From positions 1-35,091 of the forward strand of contig PWID01000124.1 of NCBI GenBank assembly GCA_003555145.1: DNA of 35,091 nucleotides, read 5' to 3'. The notes under the pieces are model-generated. The model ran no database searches and was not told where the DNA came from. It saw only the letters and a program-made list of their open reading frames with translations. Shown here piece by piece: positions 1,046-31,738 of this stretch. The translations under genes and the position numbers were made by a program. The stretch comes from Balneolia bacterium (GTDB taxonomy: Bacteria; Bacteroidota; Rhodothermia; Balneolales; Cyclonatronaceae). Each line of letters begins with the position of its first letter. The stretch's first letter is position 1.

Positions 1046-3202
1046 GTGACTAAACCTGAATTCGGAACCGAACCAGATATATCTCTTGTAATCGTTAATT
1101 ATAACGTAAAGGAGTATTTGGCCAATTTACTTCATTCTGTATATCGTGCTCATCACGACTTCAGACTTGAAATCTTTGTAGTAGATAACTATTCCACGGA
1201 TGGTTCGGTAGAGTTTCTGAGGCAGCGCTTTCCTGACGTACATTATATAGCCAACGACACCAATCTTGGCTTCGGAAAAGCTAATAATCAGGCTATCAGG
1301 CAGTGTAAGGGTAGGTACACTCTTATTGTAAACCCTGACGTTCTCATTGGTGAGGACACCCTACAGGTGCTTTACGATCATATGGAAACAAACCCAGGAA
1401 CTGGTGCGAGCGGGTGTAAAATTCTCAATCCCGACGGCACTTTTGCTCCAGAGTCCCGTCGTTCTATTCCCACCCCTATGAAGGCCATGTATAAAGTGCT
1501 TGGCCTTACGACCCTTTTCCCCAAAAGCAGTCGTTTCGCCTCCTACTATATGGGAGGAACCGATGAAAATACACCTTCCCGTGTGGAGGTTCTTTCCGGT
1601 TCTTTTATGTTTTACCGCACGGATGTGCTTCAGGAGCTTGGGGGGTTCGACGAGAGATTCTTTATGTATGGTGAAGACATCGATTTGTGCTATAGAACCC
1701 TTCAAAAAGGTTACAATATTGATTATGTGCCCGAAACGAGCATTATTCATTACAAGGGTGAAAGTACCAAGAAGGAGAATCTGAGGTACATCATCACCTT
1801 TAATAAAGCGCTCTATCAGTTTTTTGAGAAGCATTACAGCTATGGCTACAGCTTCTTTTTCCGACTTTTTATCCTGCTGGGTATAGTGGTTAAGTCGGCT
1901 GCATCTTATGTGCTCACCCTGTTTAATAAAGCGCTGCGGCCCGTGATAGACCTTGGGCTTCTCAATCTGGTTACCATCATCTTTTTCCTTTACCGGTATG
2001 AGATTCATCCGCTGAGTATTCTTCAGGACTACCAGCCGGTTTTTTTGGTGGTTAATTTAATGTGTTCGGTCTTTTATCTTCTTTTTGCCAAATATTATTC
2101 CCTCTACGGCATCAACAAGTATTCGATCAGCAGTCAGGTGAAAGCTATTATACTCACGTTTGTTTCGGTCGTGGTGATTTCATTCTTTGTAAGAGACTTT
2201 GCGTTTTCGCGGCTGGTACTTGTTGCAAGCGCATCCGTTCTTCTCGTGCTGCTGCCCGTGCTCAGATACATGAGCTCGCGCTATTTTAACCGCTCGGCAT
2301 CGGGCAGGGACAGGCTCAAGGCCATACGGGTTATTATCGCAGGGATAGATGAAAAGACGCAGTCAGCAATACGTAAAATACGCTCAGAGGTAGAGTGGAA
2401 CTACGAAATCGTAGGACTCGTATCTCAGGACGAAGACGTGAAGCAGGAGCCTATAGATGATGTGCCATTGCTTGGCCACATTTCCCAGCTGCCCGAGCTG
2501 GTTGCATCTTATAAAGCGGATCAGGTTGTTTTTATACTGGATAAAGTACGCCATATAGATGTACTTAAATCACTTTCTCAATTAAGGGACACTCCGGTTG
2601 TATCGAAGGTTGTTCCGAACTCGCTGGACTACATTATCGGGAAATCAAATGTAGAATATTTCGATGATGTACCTGTCGTGGATCTTGAACTGTCGTCTCT
2701 TAACGCATGGAACAGGTTTCTGAAAAGGAATCTTGATTTCTGGATTTCGGGTTTGGGCATCATTCTGCTGTCTCCGGTTTACATCGTACAAAAGCTGAGT
2801 AGATTCACATCAAGGCCGTCTAAAATGAACGTGAATATCTTTCTGGACTCGTCTTCAACGCTTAACGTGAAGTTTATGAGTCCTCCGGCAAAACATAAGC
2901 TTATAAATACCTATCTGTTCCTGCTGAGAGTATTTACAGGTGAGTTCAGTCTGGTAGGCGCTCCAATCATTAAAGAACGGCAGGGCAGGTTTATTTACTA
3001 TAAGCCGGGTTTAACGGGTCTGAGACAGCTTAATGAGCACAGGCTGTTTCGCGATGAAGAAAAGGAGCGGTACGAAATGCACTATCTTCAGTCGTACACG
3101 ATCTGGAAAGATCTGGAGATTTTGTTTGCAAGCCTGCGTTCGAAGCAAAGCATGCATTTCACAGAGTATATTGGTGATAGCAGTGTCGCCTCAGAAAATT
3201 AA
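1046..3202 (+). CDS. GT2 glycosyltransferase fused to a degenerate polyprenyl glycosylphosphotransferase-like region
   Basis: This 718-residue protein has three parts. Residues 12-245 are a GT2 domain of the rhamnosyltransferase (WbbL) type, with SLVIVNYN, VVDNYSTDGS, NPDV and YGEDIDLCYR. Residues about 268-410 hold several hydrophobic segments. Residues 427-540 look like the Rossmann/CoA-binding domain of WbaP-type enzymes, and 556-718 resemble the bacterial sugar transferase domain (SLVGAP, KPGLTGLRQL). In that last domain the catalytic Asp-Glu pair, DE in the neighbour at 4561, aligns to Asn621-Thr622, and KFRSM is reduced to KFMSP. The GT2 half therefore looks active and the C-terminal half looks dead. 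The start is GTG at 1046; no good ATG precedes SLVIVNYN. The 3' end lies in a 12-bp hairpin shared with the convergent tgt. Confidence is high for GT2 and moderate for the pseudoenzyme reading. Confidence 0.88.
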   Translation: MTKPEFGTEPDISLVIVNYNVKEYLANLLHSVYRAHHDFRLEIFVVDNYSTDGSVEFLRQRFPDVHYIANDTNLGFGKANNQAIRQCKGRYTLIVNPDVLIGEDTLQVLYDHMETNPGTGASGCKILNPDGTFAPESRRSIPTPMKAMYKVLGLTTLFPKSSRFASYYMGGTDENTPSRVEVLSGSFMFYRTDVLQELGGFDERFFMYGEDIDLCYRTLQKGYNIDYVPETSIIHYKGESTKKENLRYIITFNKALYQFFEKHYSYGYSFFFRLFILLGIVVKSAASYVLTLFNKALRPVIDLGLLNLVTIIFFLYRYEIHPLSILQDYQPVFLVVNLMCSVFYLLFAKYYSLYGINKYSISSQVKAIILTFVSVVVISFFVRDFAFSRLVLVASASVLLVLLPVLRYMSSRYFNRSASGRDRLKAIRVIIAGIDEKTQSAIRKIRSEVEWNYEIVGLVSQDEDVKQEPIDDVPLLGHISQLPELVASYKADQVVFILDKVRHIDVLKSLSQLRDTPVVSKVVPNSLDYIIGKSNVEYFDDVPVVDLELSSLNAWNRFLKRNLDFWISGLGIILLSPVYIVQKLSRFTSRPSKMNVNIFLDSSSTLNVKFMSPPAKHKLINTYLFLLRVFTGEFSLVGAPIIKERQGRFIYYKPGLTGLRQLNEHRLFRDEEKERYEMHYLQSYTIWKDLEILFASLRSKQSMHFTEYIGDSSVASEN

Positions 3203-3224: not shown

Positions 3225-4352
3225 CTACAGCCTGTTTGTAACCTTTTCGATCATTTGCGGATACCAGCTGCCAAAGGTTCCGGCATCGATATGGCTTCGT
3301 ATTTCTTCCATCAGCCAGAGGTAAAAGGTGAGGTTATGTACGGAAGCTATCATCATTCCAAGAATTTCGTTGCAGCGGAACAGGTGATGAATATAGGCCA
3401 TCGTATAGGTTGACGTAAAGTCTGTTCCAAAGGACTCGTCAAGAAACTGATGATGGTTTTTCCATTTCGCATTTTTCATATTGACGATACCTTCGCGGGT
3501 AAAAACGGTTCCGTTTCTTGCGTTCCGCGTCGGCATTACGCAGTCGAACATATCAACTCCATTGGCAACTCCGTGCAGCAGGTCTGCCGGGGTGCCAACG
3601 CCCATAAGGTAGCGTGCTTTTTCTGCGGGAAGAACATCAGTAACAAGGTCTGTCATTTCGTACATCAGCTCGTTCGGTTCACCCACGCTTAGTCCGCCAA
3701 TGGCGTTTCCGTCGAAATCCATTTCGGCAATAGCTTCCGCAGATTGTGTTCTCAGGTCTTTGTATGTACTGCCCTGGCATATCCCAAATAAATGCTGTTT
3801 GTGCCCGTAGTGCCCTTCCGAATTATCAAAAGCAGTCTTGCATCTTTTCGCCCAGCGATGGGTGAGCTCCATAGAGTTTTTGGCATATTCGTAGGTTGAT
3901 GGGTAGGGCGGACACTCGTCGAGCACCATCATAATATCGGAACCGAGTACCCGTTCGGTATGCACAACGCTTTCCGGGGTAAACTGATGCTTCGAGCCGT
4001 CTAAATGACTTTTGAAAGTCACTCCCCGTTCTTCAAGCTTTCGGTTGTCTGAAAGTGAAAAAACCTGGTATCCGCCGGAGTCAGTGAGAATAGGCCCGTT
4101 CCATTTCATAAACTTATGAAGACCGCCTGCCGCAGACATGATTTCATTCCCGGGCCTCAGATACAGGTGATAGGTGTTGCCAAGAATAATTTGTGCTTTA
4201 ATCTTCTCTGCCAAATCGATCTGGTTCACGGCTTTTACCGTGGCAATAGTTCCAACCGGCATAAAAATGGGCGTTTGGATTGTGCCATGGTCGGTTTTGA
4301 GCTCTCCGAGCCTGGCCTTTGTGTCGGTATCGTTCTTAATAAGTTGGAACAC
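3225..4352 (-). CDS. tgt: Queuine/preQ1 tRNA-ribosyltransferase
   Basis: Tgt exchanges guanine-34 in the anticodon of Asn, Asp, His and Tyr tRNAs for the queuosine precursor preQ1. The 375-residue length fits the family. Clear motifs are ILTDSGGYQVFSL (substrate pocket with the conserved Asp), GGLSVGEP, MGVGTP and FDCVMPTRNARNG, which carries the nucleophilic Asp. The usual zinc site CxCxxC before the AYxHH motif is missing: the three Cys positions read Phe, Thr and Thr. As I recall, Bacteroidota Tgt proteins also lack these Cys, so this is probably a lineage trait rather than decay. The start is GTG (4352), with AGGA about 15 bases upstream. The gene sits alone on the minus strand inside the glycan locus, and I saw no preQ1 riboswitch upstream. 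Confidence 0.95.
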   Translation of the reverse strand: MFQLIKNDTDTKARLGELKTDHGTIQTPIFMPVGTIATVKAVNQIDLAEKIKAQIILGNTYHLYLRPGNEIMSAAGGLHKFMKWNGPILTDSGGYQVFSLSDNRKLEERGVTFKSHLDGSKHQFTPESVVHTERVLGSDIMMVLDECPPYPSTYEYAKNSMELTHRWAKRCKTAFDNSEGHYGHKQHLFGICQGSTYKDLRTQSAEAIAEMDFDGNAIGGLSVGEPNELMYEMTDLVTDVLPAEKARYLMGVGTPADLLHGVANGVDMFDCVMPTRNARNGTVFTREGIVNMKNAKWKNHHQFLDESFGTDFTSTYTMAYIHHLFRCNEILGMMIASVHNLTFYLWLMEEIRSHIDAGTFGSWYPQMIEKVTNRL

Positions 4353-4560: not shown

Positions 4561-5979
4561 TTGGAGCGCAAAAGAGATATCATATTTACCTTACTGGCAG
4601 ACTTTATTGCTTTGCTGGCGGTGTGGTACGTGTTTTATCATATTCGTTTTGAGCTGCAGTTATTCGATTCTCCTCAACTGGTTGCTCCTGCAAGTATTTT
4701 GCTGCCCGCCATCGTAACGGCATTCTACTGGATTGCCGTTTTTGCCTTCTTTGGCCTTTATAAACGGCTGTACATGATTTCCCGTTTCGATGAGATTCTG
4801 CGGGTTGGTAAAATTACCATCATCGGCACGCTTATCTTTTTCTTTTTGCTGTTTACGGATGATCTGAACTGGAATTCGAGCAATATCAGCTACGCCAAAA
4901 ATTATACGATTATATACTGGCTGCTAACCTTTTCGTTTGTGGCATTTAACAGGCTGATTGTGCGTACCATCCAGAAAGCCACGGTTATGCGCGGAGTGGG
5001 CCTGCATAAAGCAATTATTGTGGGTGTGGGTGAAACGGCGCGGCAGGTACATGAAGACATCGAGCGCCACAAGACATCGGGTCTCAATGTAGTGGGTTTT
5101 GTAGATCAGACGGCAAAAGAAGAAGATGCCGATCCTAAAGTCGAGCCGGAAATGGTGCTGGGTACCATCGACGAAATTAATGAGATTGTTGATAAATACG
5201 GGGTTGAAGACGTAATTGTGGCAATGGAGCCTCAGGATCGGTTCAAACTGGTGAATATCCTGGATTCTATCGAAAAGCCGAACGTTACCATCAAAATACT
5301 GCCGGACTTTTATCAGATTATTAGTGGCTTGAACCAGACGAACCAAATTTTCGGGCTTCCGCTTATTGTTGTTATGCCGGACCCGATGCCTCCATGGGAA
5401 AAAACGGTTAAGCGATTGATGGACATCATTCTGTCGCTTATAATTCTGATTGCTACGCTACCGGTAATGATCGTAACCGCTCTGCTGATACGGTTTACCT
5501 CTGAAGGCCCGGTTGTATTTGCCCAGGAGCGCGTGGGCCTGCATGGCGAACCTTTTACGATGTACAAGTTCAGAAGTATGTACCAGAATGCGGAGAAAAA
5601 GACGGGGCCGACCTGGGCTACCGACGACGATCCGCGAATTACGCCACTAGGTATCTGGCTGCGAAAGCTCAGGCTCGATGAACTGCCTCAGCTGCTTAAT
5701 GTATTAAAAGGTGATATGAGTCTGGTCGGGCCACGTCCGGAGCGACAGTTTTTTGTCAATCAGTTTAAAAAGCAAATTCCTTTGTACAACCGTCGCCTCA
5801 GGGTACGCCCCGGTATTACGGGCTGGGCACAGGTAAAGTGGAAGTATGATGAAACCTTCGACGATGTAATCGAAAAGACTAAATACGATCTGTTTTATGT
5901 GGAGAACATCTCGCTTAAAATGGACCTTAAAATTCTAATAAATACCATTTTTACTATGCTGGCCGGGAAAGGCAAATAG
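4561..5979 (+). CDS. Polyprenyl-phosphate glycosylphosphotransferase (undecaprenyl-phosphate sugar phosphotransferase)
   Basis: This 472-residue membrane enzyme should start glycan synthesis by moving a sugar-1-phosphate from a nucleotide sugar to undecaprenyl phosphate. The N-terminal ~125 residues hold about four hydrophobic segments. A Rossmann/CoA-binding-3 domain follows (about 145-275; KAIIVGVGETARQV, VVGFVD). From about 285 comes the bacterial sugar transferase domain, with KRLMDIILS, VFAQERVGLHGEPFTMYKFRSM, the catalytic RLDELPQLLNV (Asp373-Glu374), SLVGPRP and RPGITGWAQV. Length and order match WbaP/WcaJ-type (TIGR03025) enzymes. The start is TTG at 4561; the next in-frame ATG would remove the first membrane segments. 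GGAG lies about 12 bases upstream. The sugar is not predictable. It is the active relative of the degenerate domain in the 1046-3202 gene. Confidence 0.93.
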   Translation: MERKRDIIFTLLADFIALLAVWYVFYHIRFELQLFDSPQLVAPASILLPAIVTAFYWIAVFAFFGLYKRLYMISRFDEILRVGKITIIGTLIFFFLLFTDDLNWNSSNISYAKNYTIIYWLLTFSFVAFNRLIVRTIQKATVMRGVGLHKAIIVGVGETARQVHEDIERHKTSGLNVVGFVDQTAKEEDADPKVEPEMVLGTIDEINEIVDKYGVEDVIVAMEPQDRFKLVNILDSIEKPNVTIKILPDFYQIISGLNQTNQIFGLPLIVVMPDPMPPWEKTVKRLMDIILSLIILIATLPVMIVTALLIRFTSEGPVVFAQERVGLHGEPFTMYKFRSMYQNAEKKTGPTWATDDDPRITPLGIWLRKLRLDELPQLLNVLKGDMSLVGPRPERQFFVNQFKKQIPLYNRRLRVRPGITGWAQVKWKYDETFDDVIEKTKYDLFYVENISLKMDLKILINTIFTMLAGKGK

Positions 5980-6017: not shown

Positions 6018-6743
6018 ATGTCCGATATTTTAGTAATCATACCGACGTATAACGAGGCCACAAATGTAGCGCGGCTTATTCCCGTTATGATGACACTCCA
6101 GCCGGAAGTGGAAGTTCTTTTTGTGGACGATAATTCTCCCGACGGAACCCAGGATATCATAAAAAAACAGGCTGAAGCTTTTCCGGAACGCATTCATCTG
6201 CTGGCTCGTGAAAAAAAATCAGGATTGGGCTCGGCTTATGTTGCCGGTTTTAAATACGCACTGGAAAAAGACTATGAGTACATCTGCGAAATGGATGCCG
6301 ACTTTTCGCACGACCCGAATGATATCACCCGGCTGGTTGATGCCGTAAAAAGTGGTGAAGGAAGCCTGGTAATAGGTTCGCGCTACCACAATGGAATAAG
6401 CATAGTGAACTGGCCTTTAAGCCGCCTCATTTTATCTTATTCTGCGAATATGTACGCGCGCTTTATAACAGGTTTGCCTGTTAAAGATACAACAGCAGGT
6501 TTCAAGTGCTTTCGCCGCGATGTGCTTGAGGCCATACAACTTCACAGGATTAAGTCCAATGGCTACGCTTTCCAGATAGAACTGCATTTTCGGGCCTGGA
6601 TGGCCGGATTTAAACTAAGCGAAGTTTCCATTATATTCAGGGAGCGTGAGGAAGGTGAATCTAAAATGTCTAAGAATATTATTTTTGAAGCAGTCTGGAT
6701 GGTCTGGGCGCTTAAACTACGCAGTATGATTAACAGATTGTGA
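6018..6743 (+). CDS. Polyprenol monophosphomannose synthase-like GT2 glycosyltransferase
   Basis: This 241-residue GT2 protein matches the dolichol-phosphate mannose synthase (DPM1/Ppm1) type. It carries VIIPTYNEA (7-15), VDDNSPDGT (36-44), the metal-binding EMDADFSHDP (91-100), IGSRYHNG and DTTAGFKCFRRDVL. Such enzymes transfer mannose or glucose from GDP/UDP-sugar to a polyprenyl phosphate, producing a lipid-linked donor for membrane glycosyltransferases. There are no C-terminal membrane helices, so it is the soluble or peripheral form. It begins 38 bases after the sugar-transferase gene on the same strand and is probably co-transcribed with it. ATG at 6018 has no Shine-Dalgarno. The exact donor sugar is inference. 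Confidence 0.9.
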   Translation: MSDILVIIPTYNEATNVARLIPVMMTLQPEVEVLFVDDNSPDGTQDIIKKQAEAFPERIHLLAREKKSGLGSAYVAGFKYALEKDYEYICEMDADFSHDPNDITRLVDAVKSGEGSLVIGSRYHNGISIVNWPLSRLILSYSANMYARFITGLPVKDTTAGFKCFRRDVLEAIQLHRIKSNGYAFQIELHFRAWMAGFKLSEVSIIFREREEGESKMSKNIIFEAVWMVWALKLRSMINRL

Positions 6744-20980: not shown

Positions 20981-23971
20981 TTGGTCAATTTTTTCAGATT
21001 TTTCACTCTTCTTCTGGTTTTAATAACCGCCACACAGTTTACTGCTGAGGTTCATGCCCAGCACGATCAGACCCCGGAAGCCGATCTTTTGTTCACAGGC
21101 ATCACACTGTATGAAAACGGACAGTTCGATGAAGCCGTCCGTGCCCTGGAAGCTTTTAAGGAAAATGAAGGAAATGAGCGTCAGCGCCGGACAGCCATGT
21201 ACTATATTGCGCTGTCTCAGGCTGCCCTGGAGCCCGACCGCACCATCATGTATTTTGATACTTTTATTGCGGAATATCCGGAAAGCCGTGAAGCTGCTCA
21301 GCTATATGTCGATTTGGCTCACCGCTACAGCTACGAGGGTAATCTGGATGAAGCCATTGCGCTTTATGAAAAAGCCCTGAGTCTTCAGCTGCCGGCCGAT
21401 CTCGCTCCACAAGTACTTTACTGGACGGCCGAATCCTATGTGAGCAAGCGTGATTATGAACAGGCTCACCACTTTTTCGGGCGTATTCCCGATGAACATC
21501 CGGGCTCCCGCTTTGCCCCGAAGGCGCTGTATACGCAGGGACGCCTTCACCTTATGGAAAACGAGAACGACGCCGCCGCGGCAAAGTTCGAGCGCCTTAG
21601 AAACAGCTACCCGGTAGCAGAGGTGGTCGGGCGCATCGGTACAGCGTTGGGTGAAGCATATTACCGGCAGGGTCGTTACCGCGAGGCTATTGAGTCGCTG
21701 AGCGGAGAAATGGGGCGGCTGGACTCACGACAGCAGTCTAAAGCATCCCTTATTATTGCCGAAAGCTACAACTACCTCGATGAGCTGGATAACGCTGCAA
21801 CCTGGTATCGTCGCTATATCCGCCTCAATGAAGGCACCGAAGAAGAGCGTCTGGCACACTACGGCCTTGGCTGGGTGTTTCATAAACAGGGTGTCTACCA
21901 CTGGGCAGCGGAATCCTTTGGTCGTGCGGTAACATCGCGAGACGATGTCTCCCGCCGTGCCATGTATTATAAAGCCGTAAACCAGAAGCTGGCTGGTCGT
22001 TACGATCAGGCGCTGAATACTTTCGAAGAATTTTCAAAAACCTTCACAACCGGCCCCTGGGTTGAGCAGGCTTATTACGAGTGGGCCATCATCCTTTTTG
22101 AGATAGGTGATCATGTTTCGGCAATCGAGCGACTTCTGTATGTAGTTCGCAATCTGGAGCCGCTGGATAATCCCGGTGCGGTTTACACCCTCCTAGGTGA
22201 AGCCTACTTCGCGAATGCAGAGTATACCCGGGCTATTGAGTCGTTCCAGCGTGCCGAAGCTTCCGGGGAGGTAACGCCTGAAGCTCAGCTTGAAGCCAGG
22301 TTTCAGCGTGCGTGGGTATTGTATCAGAATCGTGCCTTCGACGAGGCACAGCCTATATTCGAAAGCGTATACGTACAAAGTCCGGATTCTGAACTGGGCG
22401 GAGAAGCCTTGTTCTGGAGTGCCGACAGCTACTATAATATTCGTGAGTTCGGTCCGGCCAGCGCCCGTTTTCAGCGCTATCTTGCTGAATTCCGCGATGG
22501 AGAGTTCAGATCAGCTGCAAGGTATTCACTGGGCTGGAGCTACTTTATGCTGGGAGAATTTGAGCGGGCAATTCCGCCGCTTCGACAGTTTCTCGATAAC
22601 TTTGAGGAGCCTGAAATAGCAATCTTTCCATACGACATTGATGCCAAGCTTCGCATAGCCGACGCCAATTTTGCCCTTCGTAATTACGACGAAGCTATTG
22701 CCTTCTACGAAAATGCCCAGGCATTTGAGCGCAGCGCAGACTATGCAACTTACCAGATTGCCAACAGCTTCTATCGTAACGATCAGACTTTTGAAGCTGT
22801 ACGTACATTCCGCCAGCTTATCAGCGACTTCCCGCAGAGCGGATTCCGCGAGCAGGCGCAGTACAGCATTGGCTACATTTATCTGCTTTCAGGTAATTAT
22901 TCGCAGGCCATTCAGGAGTTTGAGCGTACCATCGAGCGCTTTCCACGCTCGCAGTGGGCCGCCCGGGCGCAGTACAATATTGGTAACGCTCACTTCAATG
23001 CGGGTGAATATACAGCGGCTATAGCTGCCTACCAGCGGGTTCTGGACCGCTATCCGCAGAGCGACCTTATTATTGAGGCTGTTAACGGTATTCAGTTTGC
23101 GCAGGAAGCTGCGGGTCAGAGCGACACAAGTACCCAAAAGCTGGAAGAGTTTATAGCATCTAACCCTCAGGCAGGGACGGCTGATCAGCTGCGTTTTCGT
23201 CAGGCACAGTCCCTTCTTGAAACCTCCGATTATGAAGGCGCGGTGCAGTCGTTCAGACAGTATATCCGCGTTACGAACAACGAGCGCATGATACCCGAGG
23301 CCTGGTACAACATTGCTGAAGCACACAGAAGGGCAGGACAGCGGGATCAGGCAAGAGAAGCATACCGAACCGTGATAGATGATTTCCCCAACAGTGATCG
23401 TCGCGGTACCGCTTTACTCGAGCTGGGTAATATGCATTTAAGTGCCGGTGAATACGACAACGCCATGACCCGCTTTAGTCAGCTTGCTGAAAGCAGCCGA
23501 AGCCTGCGTTTCGACGCCAGAATCGGCATGGGTAATGCCGCGCTCGGAAAGGGTGATATTTCTGCGGCTGAATCCAGCTTCAATCAGGCGGCCGGTTTGG
23601 GTGGCGATCAGAATCAGGTGCAGCTTGGATTGGCTAAAGTGGATTTTCAGCGGAATAATTTCAGTCAGGCCCGGGACAAGTTCCGTGAAGTATCGGAAAG
23701 CAGTTCGGGAGTAACCGGTGCTGAAGCTCAGTTCCGCTACGGCTTATCGCTGCAGCGTATGAACAGCCATATCGATGCCATAAGAGAGTTTGGAAACGTA
23801 CGTATCTTTTTCGGGGCCTACACAAACTGGGTTGCAGAGGCCATGCTGGCGTCTATCGACTCGAATCTGGCCCTGGGCAACCGCACGGAAGCCGAGCAGA
23901 TAAGCCGAATGGTGCGGGAAGAATATCCCGGAACCGGTTATGCTCAAAGGGCACAGTCTAAAATCAGATAA
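20981..23971 (+). CDS. Exported tetratricopeptide-repeat protein
   Basis: This 996-residue protein begins with a Sec signal peptide (FFRFFTLLLVLITATQF, then AEVHAQ, with cleavage likely after the final A of VHA). The rest is nearly continuous tetratricopeptide repeats of about 34-37 residues. Examples are LLFTGITLYENGQFDEAVRA, AQYNIGNAHFNAGEYTAAIA and AWYNIAEAHRRAGQRDQARE; about 20 or more repeats are visible. It should be a periplasmic helical solenoid that binds partner proteins, similar in style to BamD, YbgF or gliding/secretion scaffolds. No partner is given by the sequence. The start is TTG at 20981; no ATG precedes the signal peptide. It overlaps the ORF-track aroA start, though the true aroA start is probably downstream. 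Confidence 0.85.
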   Translation: MVNFFRFFTLLLVLITATQFTAEVHAQHDQTPEADLLFTGITLYENGQFDEAVRALEAFKENEGNERQRRTAMYYIALSQAALEPDRTIMYFDTFIAEYPESREAAQLYVDLAHRYSYEGNLDEAIALYEKALSLQLPADLAPQVLYWTAESYVSKRDYEQAHHFFGRIPDEHPGSRFAPKALYTQGRLHLMENENDAAAAKFERLRNSYPVAEVVGRIGTALGEAYYRQGRYREAIESLSGEMGRLDSRQQSKASLIIAESYNYLDELDNAATWYRRYIRLNEGTEEERLAHYGLGWVFHKQGVYHWAAESFGRAVTSRDDVSRRAMYYKAVNQKLAGRYDQALNTFEEFSKTFTTGPWVEQAYYEWAIILFEIGDHVSAIERLLYVVRNLEPLDNPGAVYTLLGEAYFANAEYTRAIESFQRAEASGEVTPEAQLEARFQRAWVLYQNRAFDEAQPIFESVYVQSPDSELGGEALFWSADSYYNIREFGPASARFQRYLAEFRDGEFRSAARYSLGWSYFMLGEFERAIPPLRQFLDNFEEPEIAIFPYDIDAKLRIADANFALRNYDEAIAFYENAQAFERSADYATYQIANSFYRNDQTFEAVRTFRQLISDFPQSGFREQAQYSIGYIYLLSGNYSQAIQEFERTIERFPRSQWAARAQYNIGNAHFNAGEYTAAIAAYQRVLDRYPQSDLIIEAVNGIQFAQEAAGQSDTSTQKLEEFIASNPQAGTADQLRFRQAQSLLETSDYEGAVQSFRQYIRVTNNERMIPEAWYNIAEAHRRAGQRDQAREAYRTVIDDFPNSDRRGTALLELGNMHLSAGEYDNAMTRFSQLAESSRSLRFDARIGMGNAALGKGDISAAESSFNQAAGLGGDQNQVQLGLAKVDFQRNNFSQARDKFREVSESSSGVTGAEAQFRYGLSLQRMNSHIDAIREFGNVRIFFGAYTNWVAEAMLASIDSNLALGNRTEAEQISRMVREEYPGTGYAQRAQSKIR

Positions 23972-29168: not shown

Positions 29169-31700
29169 CTACTTTATCAACAGCATTTTCCGGGTCTCAG
29201 AAACACCATTAGCCGTAATTTGGTAAAGGTATATGCCGCTGGATAATCGTGTTGCATCGAACACAGAGAAGTGGGTACCCTGTGCCTGATTCTCATTTAC
29301 CAGCGTAGCAATTCGCTGCCCGGCAATATTGTACACATCGAGCCGTACCTGTGCGTTTTCGGGCAGCGTGTACTGTATAGTTGTAGTCGGATTGAATGGA
29401 TTTGGATAGTTCTGATACAACTTAACTGTATTGGGAAGATCTATTGGATCTGGTCCGATGCTTACAGGAGGCGTGTAGTCAAGGTCAAGACTCCATACGG
29501 TTAAACCTGCTGCCGGCTGATTTCCGGCACGGGTAAAGCGACCGCTTAGCCAGAGATCGGTTTCCCAAACCAGAAAATCATCAACCCTTCCGTTTACTCC
29601 AAAACCAAGGGGCAACCAGCTTGTTCCGTTATCTGCCAGCCGGGCGATGTTGTTTAGCTGGGTGCCCATGTAGCTGTCGAACAGTCCGCCTATGTACAAT
29701 GTGCCTTCCAGCATGGCCAGCGCTCGCACGCCAAACCCTGAGCCTGAGTCGAGCGTATTACCTGCTCGTTCCCAATCTCCTTGTCCAGACAAATTAAGTT
29801 TGGCAACATAGCGCGCGGAAGACTCAACCAGGTTCGTAAAATTACCGCCGATATAGAGGTAGTTGTCGTGAACCATCAGTGTATATACATCGTTGTTGGG
29901 CTGGACGGTAGCTACCGGCTCCCACACTTCTTCAGTGAGATGATACCGTGCTACACGTCCAGTGTTAATTCCGCCAGCCTGAGAAAATGCTCCGGCGGCA
30001 TAGAGGTAGTCATCATGGATAGCTATATCATAGATTATTCCGTTCGTTCCGTCACCAAGAGGGTGGAAGCTGCCGGTTGGTATGTGGTAGCGCATAATTC
30101 TGTTTCCGGAAACTCCACCTGCCGAAGCGAAACCGCCGGCAAAAATGAGGTTGTCCTCGTGCACAGCAAATGCATAAATGGTGCCGCCCATCGTCTGCCC
30201 CTCGGGAATTAAAGCTTCCCATTCGTTAGTGCTGAGGTTGTATTTTGCTATTCGATTCAGATTTGTCGCAGTTGATGTTCCGAAGTTTCCGCCTACATAA
30301 ATATATCCATCGTGCTTTTTTAAGGAATGTACTTCTCCGTTGAAGGTGACTGCAGATGGGAACGGGGTCACCTGAGTCCAGTTTCGGCTTCCGGGGTTAA
30401 ACGAAGCCACACGGTCGGCGCGCAGATTTCCGGAGTTTATGAAAAAGCCACCGAGGATAATATTGTCACCTGCCCGGTACAAAGCATTGACACGTCCTTC
30501 ATGCGTTATTCCATTTCCGAGACTCCTCATTTTATCTTCCGCGGGAATGTAGGTAAATATTCGTCCGCTGTTAATGCCGCGAATCCTTGGCATGGAGCCG
30601 TAAGCAAGGATTTCATCACGAAAATGGTCTAACCCGAAGTATGTGCCGGATACGGCTAAGTCGGGGCTTTCAATTGGCTCCCACTGGCTGGATGGAAGAT
30701 GGAGTTTAGAAAAACCGCGGATGTTATCGTCGCCTATAGTGCTGTCCCAGTTATGTCCGCCCACATACAGATAATCTCCCGCCCGCAGCAAAGATCGCAG
30801 GAAGCTCTGTTGTTCAATTTCGTCGCCGACTGATGAAAACGTTTGCTCACTTCTGCTGTATTGAACCAGACTGCGAACCTGTGAGCCATCCGGCGCGGTG
30901 CTGAACGATCCTGCCAGCCAGATATAGTCTTCATCAAATTCAATATCATAGAAAGTGCCAGTAGCCTGATTCCCTATGGTGCTCCAGTCTCCGGTTTCCA
31001 TATTATAAATGGCTATTGAAGGAGAGTCAAGCCCGCTTATTGACGGGAAGTTGCCGAGCACGTACAGATGGTTACCTTCAGAGGCCAGTCGTTGAATACG
31101 GTCGCCTGCTACAGGAACTCCACCACCCATGTTGTCCCATTCGTTGTTTGTAAAGCTGTAGCGAGCTATGCTATTGGCGTCGATTCCGTCAACAGAGGAG
31201 AAGTCTCCGGCGATAAACATATAATCGCCCGATATATGAATATGTCTCACCTGATTATTAATTTCATGATTGAAGGGCTCCCATTCTTTAGTATCAATAT
31301 TCCATATCACCATGTAATCCGCAGATTCACCGGCAACCTGGGAAAAATCACCACCCAGATAAAGACGGTTTTCAAACCGGTCGATTGTTCGGGCAAAGCC
31401 TTGCCCCGGTCCGTCGGGTGTGGGATCCCATTGATCGGTTTTTCCGTCATAAATGGCAAAGCTGAATGCTTCAAGTCCACCTGCCAGATTAAGACGGCCC
31501 ACGGCATAAATAGTTTCTCCGTCAATTACGACATCCTGAACGGTTCTGGTTGGGTTTGGACCCTCAATTCCCGGTGATGAATTTGGCCAATTCCAGTTAT
31601 CGTTGGTAAGATCATCCTGCTGGGCAAACAAGGATGAAGCAGGAAGCAAAAAGATCAGAATTAGACCGGTTAAACGGATGGATTTTAATAGCGTTTTCAT
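29169..31700 (-). CDS. Secreted beta-propeller-repeat protein with type 9 secretion sorting domain
   Basis: I place the start at the ATG at 31700 (MKTLLKSIRLTG), which gives a clean Sec signal peptide: a basic start, LILIFLLPASS and LFAQ. The ORF track adds 12 residues. The body consists of repeats of about 50 residues built on a Gly-Gly-Phe/Asn-Phe turn and an ARY/RIARY strand (for example YLYVGGNF and IFAGGFASAGG). They resemble the propeller-like Rax2/delta-60 style repeats. The last 85 residues (VKLYQNYPNPFNPTT to RKMLLIK) are a Por/T9SS type A sorting domain, so the protein should leave the cell or stay on its surface. No enzyme motif is seen. A terminator follows. Confidence 0.85.
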   Translation of the reverse strand: MKTLLKSIRLTGLILIFLLPASSLFAQQDDLTNDNWNWPNSSPGIEGPNPTRTVQDVVIDGETIYAVGRLNLAGGLEAFSFAIYDGKTDQWDPTPDGPGQGFARTIDRFENRLYLGGDFSQVAGESADYMVIWNIDTKEWEPFNHEINNQVRHIHISGDYMFIAGDFSSVDGIDANSIARYSFTNNEWDNMGGGVPVAGDRIQRLASEGNHLYVLGNFPSISGLDSPSIAIYNMETGDWSTIGNQATGTFYDIEFDEDYIWLAGSFSTAPDGSQVRSLVQYSRSEQTFSSVGDEIEQQSFLRSLLRAGDYLYVGGHNWDSTIGDDNIRGFSKLHLPSSQWEPIESPDLAVSGTYFGLDHFRDEILAYGSMPRIRGINSGRIFTYIPAEDKMRSLGNGITHEGRVNALYRAGDNIILGGFFINSGNLRADRVASFNPGSRNWTQVTPFPSAVTFNGEVHSLKKHDGYIYVGGNFGTSTATNLNRIAKYNLSTNEWEALIPEGQTMGGTIYAFAVHEDNLIFAGGFASAGGVSGNRIMRYHIPTGSFHPLGDGTNGIIYDIAIHDDYLYAAGAFSQAGGINTGRVARYHLTEEVWEPVATVQPNNDVYTLMVHDNYLYIGGNFTNLVESSARYVAKLNLSGQGDWERAGNTLDSGSGFGVRALAMLEGTLYIGGLFDSYMGTQLNNIARLADNGTSWLPLGFGVNGRVDDFLVWETDLWLSGRFTRAGNQPAAGLTVWSLDLDYTPPVSIGPDPIDLPNTVKLYQNYPNPFNPTTTIQYTLPENAQVRLDVYNIAGQRIATLVNENQAQGTHFSVFDATRLSSGIYLYQITANGVSETRKMLLIK

Positions 31701-31738
31701 AGGTATAAGATTTGATTCCGTGTTGGCAAGGTGCAAAA

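Follow-up and report, generated by a model that had tools for sequence, protein, structure and literature searches.

Large PGTs of the WbaP/WcaJ type (PF13727 + PF02397; PDB 8t53) form dimers in which the PF13727 domains swap hairpins (PMC10942596). In Bi-PGTs, bifunctional monoPGTs, a functional domain is fused to the monoPGT domain (PMC10942596). Both large PGTs and PGT fusions are already known. In the small PGT PglC (PDB 8g1n, 8e37), reentrant topology, contact with lipid and fold are determined by a Lys7-Arg8 dyad, a Ser23-Pro24 break and Asp169 (PMC6133551). A 718-aa protein encoded by a Balneolia bacterium shares with large PGTs the order of the parts (4-helix bundle, PF13727, PF02397), as well as the Lys-Arg dyad, the helix-break Pro, the SLVG and PGLTG motifs and the PF13727 hairpin. 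Unlike WbaP/WcaJ, it carries a GT2 domain at the N-terminus, and has lost the catalytic Asp-Glu, the KFRSM segment and the PRP arginine. It is built like Bi-PGTs, but in these, as described, the partner joins a catalytic PGT, whereas here the PGT appears to be dead, and the catalytic one is encoded by a separate gene. The fold of the C-terminal domain is common to PglC, from which the protein differs in missing the catalytic dyad and in its long N-terminal additions. Intact NPD and GED motifs are shared with GT2 enzymes (PF00535/PF13641; EPS, rhamnosyl transfer), but ordinary GT2s do not bear a 450-residue pseudo-PGT tail. In the open-access literature searched, which omits most subscription journals, we found no account of a PGT pseudoenzyme, nor of a conserved dead PGT joined to a GT2 and retained jointly with an active PGT; priority therefore cannot be claimed.

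The window, i.e. the whole stretch of DNA analysed, measures 35,091 nucleotides (contig PWID01000124.1), and the fusion gene and the neighbours described with it lie on its forward strand, tgt excepted. The fusion gene (positions 1046–3202) starts with GTG, and is defined by the ORF call, Pfam, an AlphaFold2 model and orthologues. The GT2 domain (PF00535/PF13641) spans residues ~8–262 (1067–1831), with the NPD and GEDID motifs retained. Residues 13–198 match PF00535 (E 8e-25), and N96-P97-D98 and E210-D211 are invariant in 25 orthologues; by these, the N-terminus is a GT2 with intact catalytic motifs. The helical membrane region (residues ~263–414; 1832–2287) resembles in the AlphaFold2 model the 4-helix bundle of large PGTs, with helices at residues 266–317, 331–350, 361–381 and 389–414. 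The PF13727 (CoA_binding_3/DUF) Rossmann domain and its terminal beta-hairpin, recognized by Pfam and AlphaFold2, occupy residues ~425–549 (2318–2692), the Pfam match covering residues 367–523 (E 2e-17). A degenerate PGT core (PF02397; residues ~550–700; 2693–3145) is marked by Pfam, alignments, hhalign and Foldseek. The Bac_transf profile PF02397 matches residues 626–697 only (profile positions 94–174 of 179, E 1e-9), its N-terminal half having no Pfam match in the fusion. None of 25 NCBIfam models among the matches listed reached its cut-off. Pfam and AlphaFold2 agree in this respect with a preliminary description of the locus, which had reported a GT2 joined to a WbaP-like membrane, Rossmann and sugar-transferase architecture.

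The same description held that the catalytic Asp-Glu pair is replaced by Asn621-Thr622 (AAT ACC, 2906–2911), and the orthologue alignment bears this out. In a gap-free alignment anchored on the common SLVG motif, these residues face Asp373-Glu374 of the protein encoded at 4561–5979. The position of the catalytic Asp is occupied by Asn in 37/37 orthologues of the order reaching it; the Glu position is never Glu in these sequences (Arg in 22, Thr in 5, Phe in 3, other residues in the remainder). Gaps around Asn621 are placed differently by MAFFT and hhalign, and neither program puts DE at the active site. The fusion and its orthologues lack the KFRSM loop, within a deletion of ~20–30 residues, and the PRP-motif arginine is absent from the PGT core. 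KFMSP, previously read as a remnant of KFRSM, is a chance resemblance, since the KFRSM segment is deleted and unrelated residues are found there in orthologues. In profile–profile comparisons the core is homologous to active PGTs (hhalign, E 3e-19), as are relatives from outside the order (E 5e-17). No catalytic DE was found in the C-termini of ~90 relatives from Bacteroidota, Ignavibacteria, Calditrichota, Neomarinimicrobiota and other groups. An intact DE elsewhere in residues 556–718 is rejected, as the remaining D-E strings lie off the active site: LDExP, found in four relatives, corresponds to a hairpin upstream of the membrane helix, outside the active site, and the RDEEK pair sits after PGLTG and varies among orthologues. 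Conservation across many genera and purifying selection exclude recent decay or a sequencing error. The degenerate PGT should be unable to form the Asp-phosphosugar intermediate, because Asp, Glu, KFRSM loop and PRP arginine are all gone. Judged from the alignments, the C-terminal domain is a PGT pseudoenzyme, which lost the catalytic residues and is conserved and under selection.

Other elements persist. The Lys560-Arg561 dyad and the partner Asp689 are each kept in 36/36 aligned orthologues; the helix-break Pro577 is found at the exact position in 22/36, and a Pro within range in 35/36. When equal-length matched stretches are read without gaps, Asp689 falls on chain position 173 of PglC 8g1n, and would be the counterpart of PglC Asp169 if the 8g1n construct has four extra residues. 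GxxSLVG, PGLTGxxQ and YYLQNYSIW are similarly retained, and the persistence of the SLVG and PGLTG regions, noticed earlier in the single protein, extends to the orthologues. Residues K533, V536, Y538 and P543 of the PF13727 hairpin are almost invariant in orthologues, and the hairpin strands are predicted in the AlphaFold2 model. The surviving elements are those to which studies of PglC attribute membrane embedding and fold. Foldseek aligns the model to WbaP 8t53 (E 2e-11) and to PglC 8g1n (E 3e-5, TM 0.62 by target length); whole-model TM-scores against WbaP are low, because the domains are differently placed. In the pseudo-domain pN is 0.19–0.29 and synonymous sites are saturated (pS ~0.77–0.85), and for this saturation dN/dS is not computable per domain. 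Low pN in the presence of saturated synonymous sites argues that the pseudo-PGT domain is under purifying selection, less strict than that acting on the GT2 domain.

The gene at 4561–5979 encodes an active large PGT, WbaP/WcaJ-like (PF02397, E 9e-71), which carries KFRSM, LDELP and SLVGPRP, the complete catalytic motif set. The pseudoenzyme is therefore flanked by an intact relative, as had been proposed. In Balneolales loci the two genes are separated by tgt (queuine tRNA-ribosyltransferase; 3225–4352, reverse strand; Pfam, loci), a flanking gene outside the pathway which serves as landmark for joint losses. A Dpm-like GT2 gene (6018–6743) follows; it adjoins in many FCB genomes, and is kept when fusion and PGT are lost. 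Co-occurrence was counted by hand in 113 genomes of the order, with completeness of at least 80%, taking as orthologues matches stronger than 1e-50 (fusion) and 1e-100 (PGT), thresholds chosen so that the orthologue match far exceeds the paralogue background. Fusion and active PGT are both present in 65 genomes and both absent in 46, and are hence concordant in 111/113. The 65 take in G009, G117 and G118, where the PGT is kept with a shorter, diverged GT2 matching the fusion profile, and three genomes whose GT2 lost the pseudo-domain. Among the two discordant genomes, G008 has the fusion only and G020 the PGT only; the contig of the latter stops within tgt, and its fusion may be merely unassembled. 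The PGT is missing from 11 inspected loci, in which tgt directly neighbours dpm. The tgt+dpm tree requires three joint losses, two of which are forced by supported branches. Smaller PGTs remain in most genomes that lost the pair, so one pathway, rather than surface glycans generally, would have been lost. Conserved neighbourhood and joint presence/absence support a functional coupling of the fusion to the active PGT.

In several Balneolales genomes the locus adjoins an rRNA operon (L263, 8134–13333; L270, 233–4051; L054, 13–120), which in L263 includes 23S, 16S and 5S genes and two tRNAs. Many contigs break a few kb from the fusion gene, probably for this reason.

The dead copy is no peculiarity of this locus. 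According to the grouping of genomes used, family members occur throughout the order, its class and its phylum, including a relative of the same order in Gracilimonas mengyeensis (Balneolales, L209). Named records come from Ignavibacteria, Kryptonium, Calditrichota, KSB1, Neomarinimicrobiota and Chlorobiota, as from Bacteroidales, Flavobacteriales, Cytophagales and Saprospiraceae. Fusion and active-site loss, as read in the sequences, are spread over the FCB group; they are widespread, not universal, as some of the sampled genera and families appear with a GT2 only, or without orthologue. PGT, Dpm-like GT2, fusion, accA, thioesterase and nadC genes make up a frequent arrangement of the family loci. 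Outside the order Asn621 is not retained, and the pseudo-PGT domain is shorter still. With a function assigned to the family, many proteins whose best curated label is merely 'glycosyltransferase' would acquire a role.

Some family members are truncated. Three close relatives, in L072–L074, keep the active PGT, and have a GT2 devoid of 4-helix bundle, hairpin and pseudo-PGT; a similar truncation is found in L122/L140, which belong to a family outside the order. A part of the Rossmann domain survives in both sets, which favours a function for this domain over a pure anchor. Next to tgt, where the fusion would be expected, L276 (7292–8110) and L277 (6940–7770) have a diverged GT2 of ~275 aa; both come from small genomes (1.5 Mb) in which the active PGT is kept. 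This GT2 may be a replacement or an extreme reduction of the fusion.

The reading preferred here, to which a probability of about 0.5 is assigned, is that the fusion is a membrane-bound GT2 acting at the second step, after the neighbouring PGT, with the dead PGT docking it to the membrane and, probably, to the active PGT. The protein encoded at 4561–5979 would move a phospho-sugar from a nucleotide-sugar onto the polyprenyl-phosphate carrier, and the GT2 domain of the fusion would then add the next sugar to the lipid-linked one. The dead PGT scaffold, embedded in the cytoplasmic membrane face, would bring the GT2 to the lipid carrier, and probably dock it at the active PGT, most likely via the pairing of large-PGT scaffolds. 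We infer the addition of a second sugar, the binding of the carrier lipid by the module, and its pairing with the active PGT; the latter is suggested by the PF13727 hairpin, through which large PGTs pair, and which is strongly conserved in the fusion. That dead and living large PGTs pair in a complex for initiation and addition of the second sugar, channelling the polyprenyl-PP-sugar and widespread in FCB bacteria, is a more tentative proposal, rather less probable than the former. In Neomarinimicrobiota and Calditrichota the fusion is accompanied by rmlD-like and dpm-like genes; the stretches examined around these loci showed no PGT, which counts against the mechanism. Docking by the pseudo-PGT would not be essential everywhere, since L072–L074 and L122/L140 dropped the module. 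The scaffold or regulator role proposed in the preliminary description accordingly stands in part: functional coupling is supported by the concordance and by the approximately three joint losses, but the module proved dispensable in L072–L074. Little is settled about what keeps the two opening steps of polyprenyl-linked glycan synthesis at one place on the membrane, and the fusion provides a natural test system.

The dead PGT could also be an inherited membrane scaffold for the GT2, making no contact with the active PGT, in which case the two enzymes would be lost together merely because they work on the same glycan. Retention of topology and fold residues fits, as do the faster drift, relative to the GT2 domain, of the sequence outside the motifs and the further reduction of the pseudo-PGT outside the order. 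Yet L072–L074 and L122/L140 independently lost the membrane bundle and kept the Rossmann part, the reverse of what a scaffold of this kind predicts, and the motifs GxxSLVG and PGLTGxxQ, located on the globular face, are retained; on balance this explanation is rather unlikely. Survival of the Rossmann domain in truncated forms would suit a regulator, in which PF13727 senses a nucleotide such as UMP, a role assigned to this domain in WbaP (PMC10942596), and the dead PGT throttles active PGT or GT2 according to supply. Nucleotide binding is hypothetical here, however, and conservation is highest in the GT2 domain rather than in the regulator-like part, making regulation improbable. Invariance of Asn621 in the order (37/37) exceeds what structure alone obviously needs, and might denote an activity retained or gained by the domain, in which this residue participates; but Asn621 is not kept outside the order, no conserved acid lies beside it, and very little weight is given to such an activity.

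The fusion might finally belong to the Man-Rha core of the protein O-glycans of Bacteroidota, the Dpm-like GT2 making the first lipid-linked sugar and the GT2 of the fusion adding rhamnose. The core enzymes were described as unknown in 2025 (PMC12871550), leaving room for such an assignment, and Dpm-like genes adjoin the fusion in many phyla, lying directly upstream in ~30 of 80 FCB loci. An rmlD-like gene is found upstream in nine loci (L203, L205, L207, L213, L214, L215, L222, L240, L252), where rmlD-like gene, dpm-like GT2 and fusion are consecutive and accA mostly comes next; these loci are from Neomarinimicrobiota, Calditrichota and KSB1. This arrangement hints that the GT2 may transfer rhamnose there; one of the nine rmlD-like genes passes the curated RmlD cut-off. 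But Balneolales lineages lacking the fusion all keep dpm and have lost the PGT instead, and a dedicated partnership of fusion and Dpm-like GT2 is weakened, as dpm persists where fusion and PGT are gone. Nor did a single, weak test show D-S/T motifs enriched in exported proteins of a genome having the gene: with a crude export rule, 400 kb samples and no positive control, the O/E of D-[ST]-[AILVMT] was 1.04 in exported and 1.17 in cytosolic proteins, and that of the D-S/T motif 0.87 in a genome without the gene. Participation in the O-glycan core is thus quite doubtful, and a link to O-glycans in other phyla likewise has low probability.

Two more genes of the window deserve mention. The 996-residue product of positions 20981–23971 consists mostly of tetratricopeptide repeats; its gene adjoins one of the EPSP-synthase family. 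An 855-residue kelch/beta-propeller protein, encoded at 29169–31736, bears at its C-terminus a Por secretion (type IX) sorting domain.
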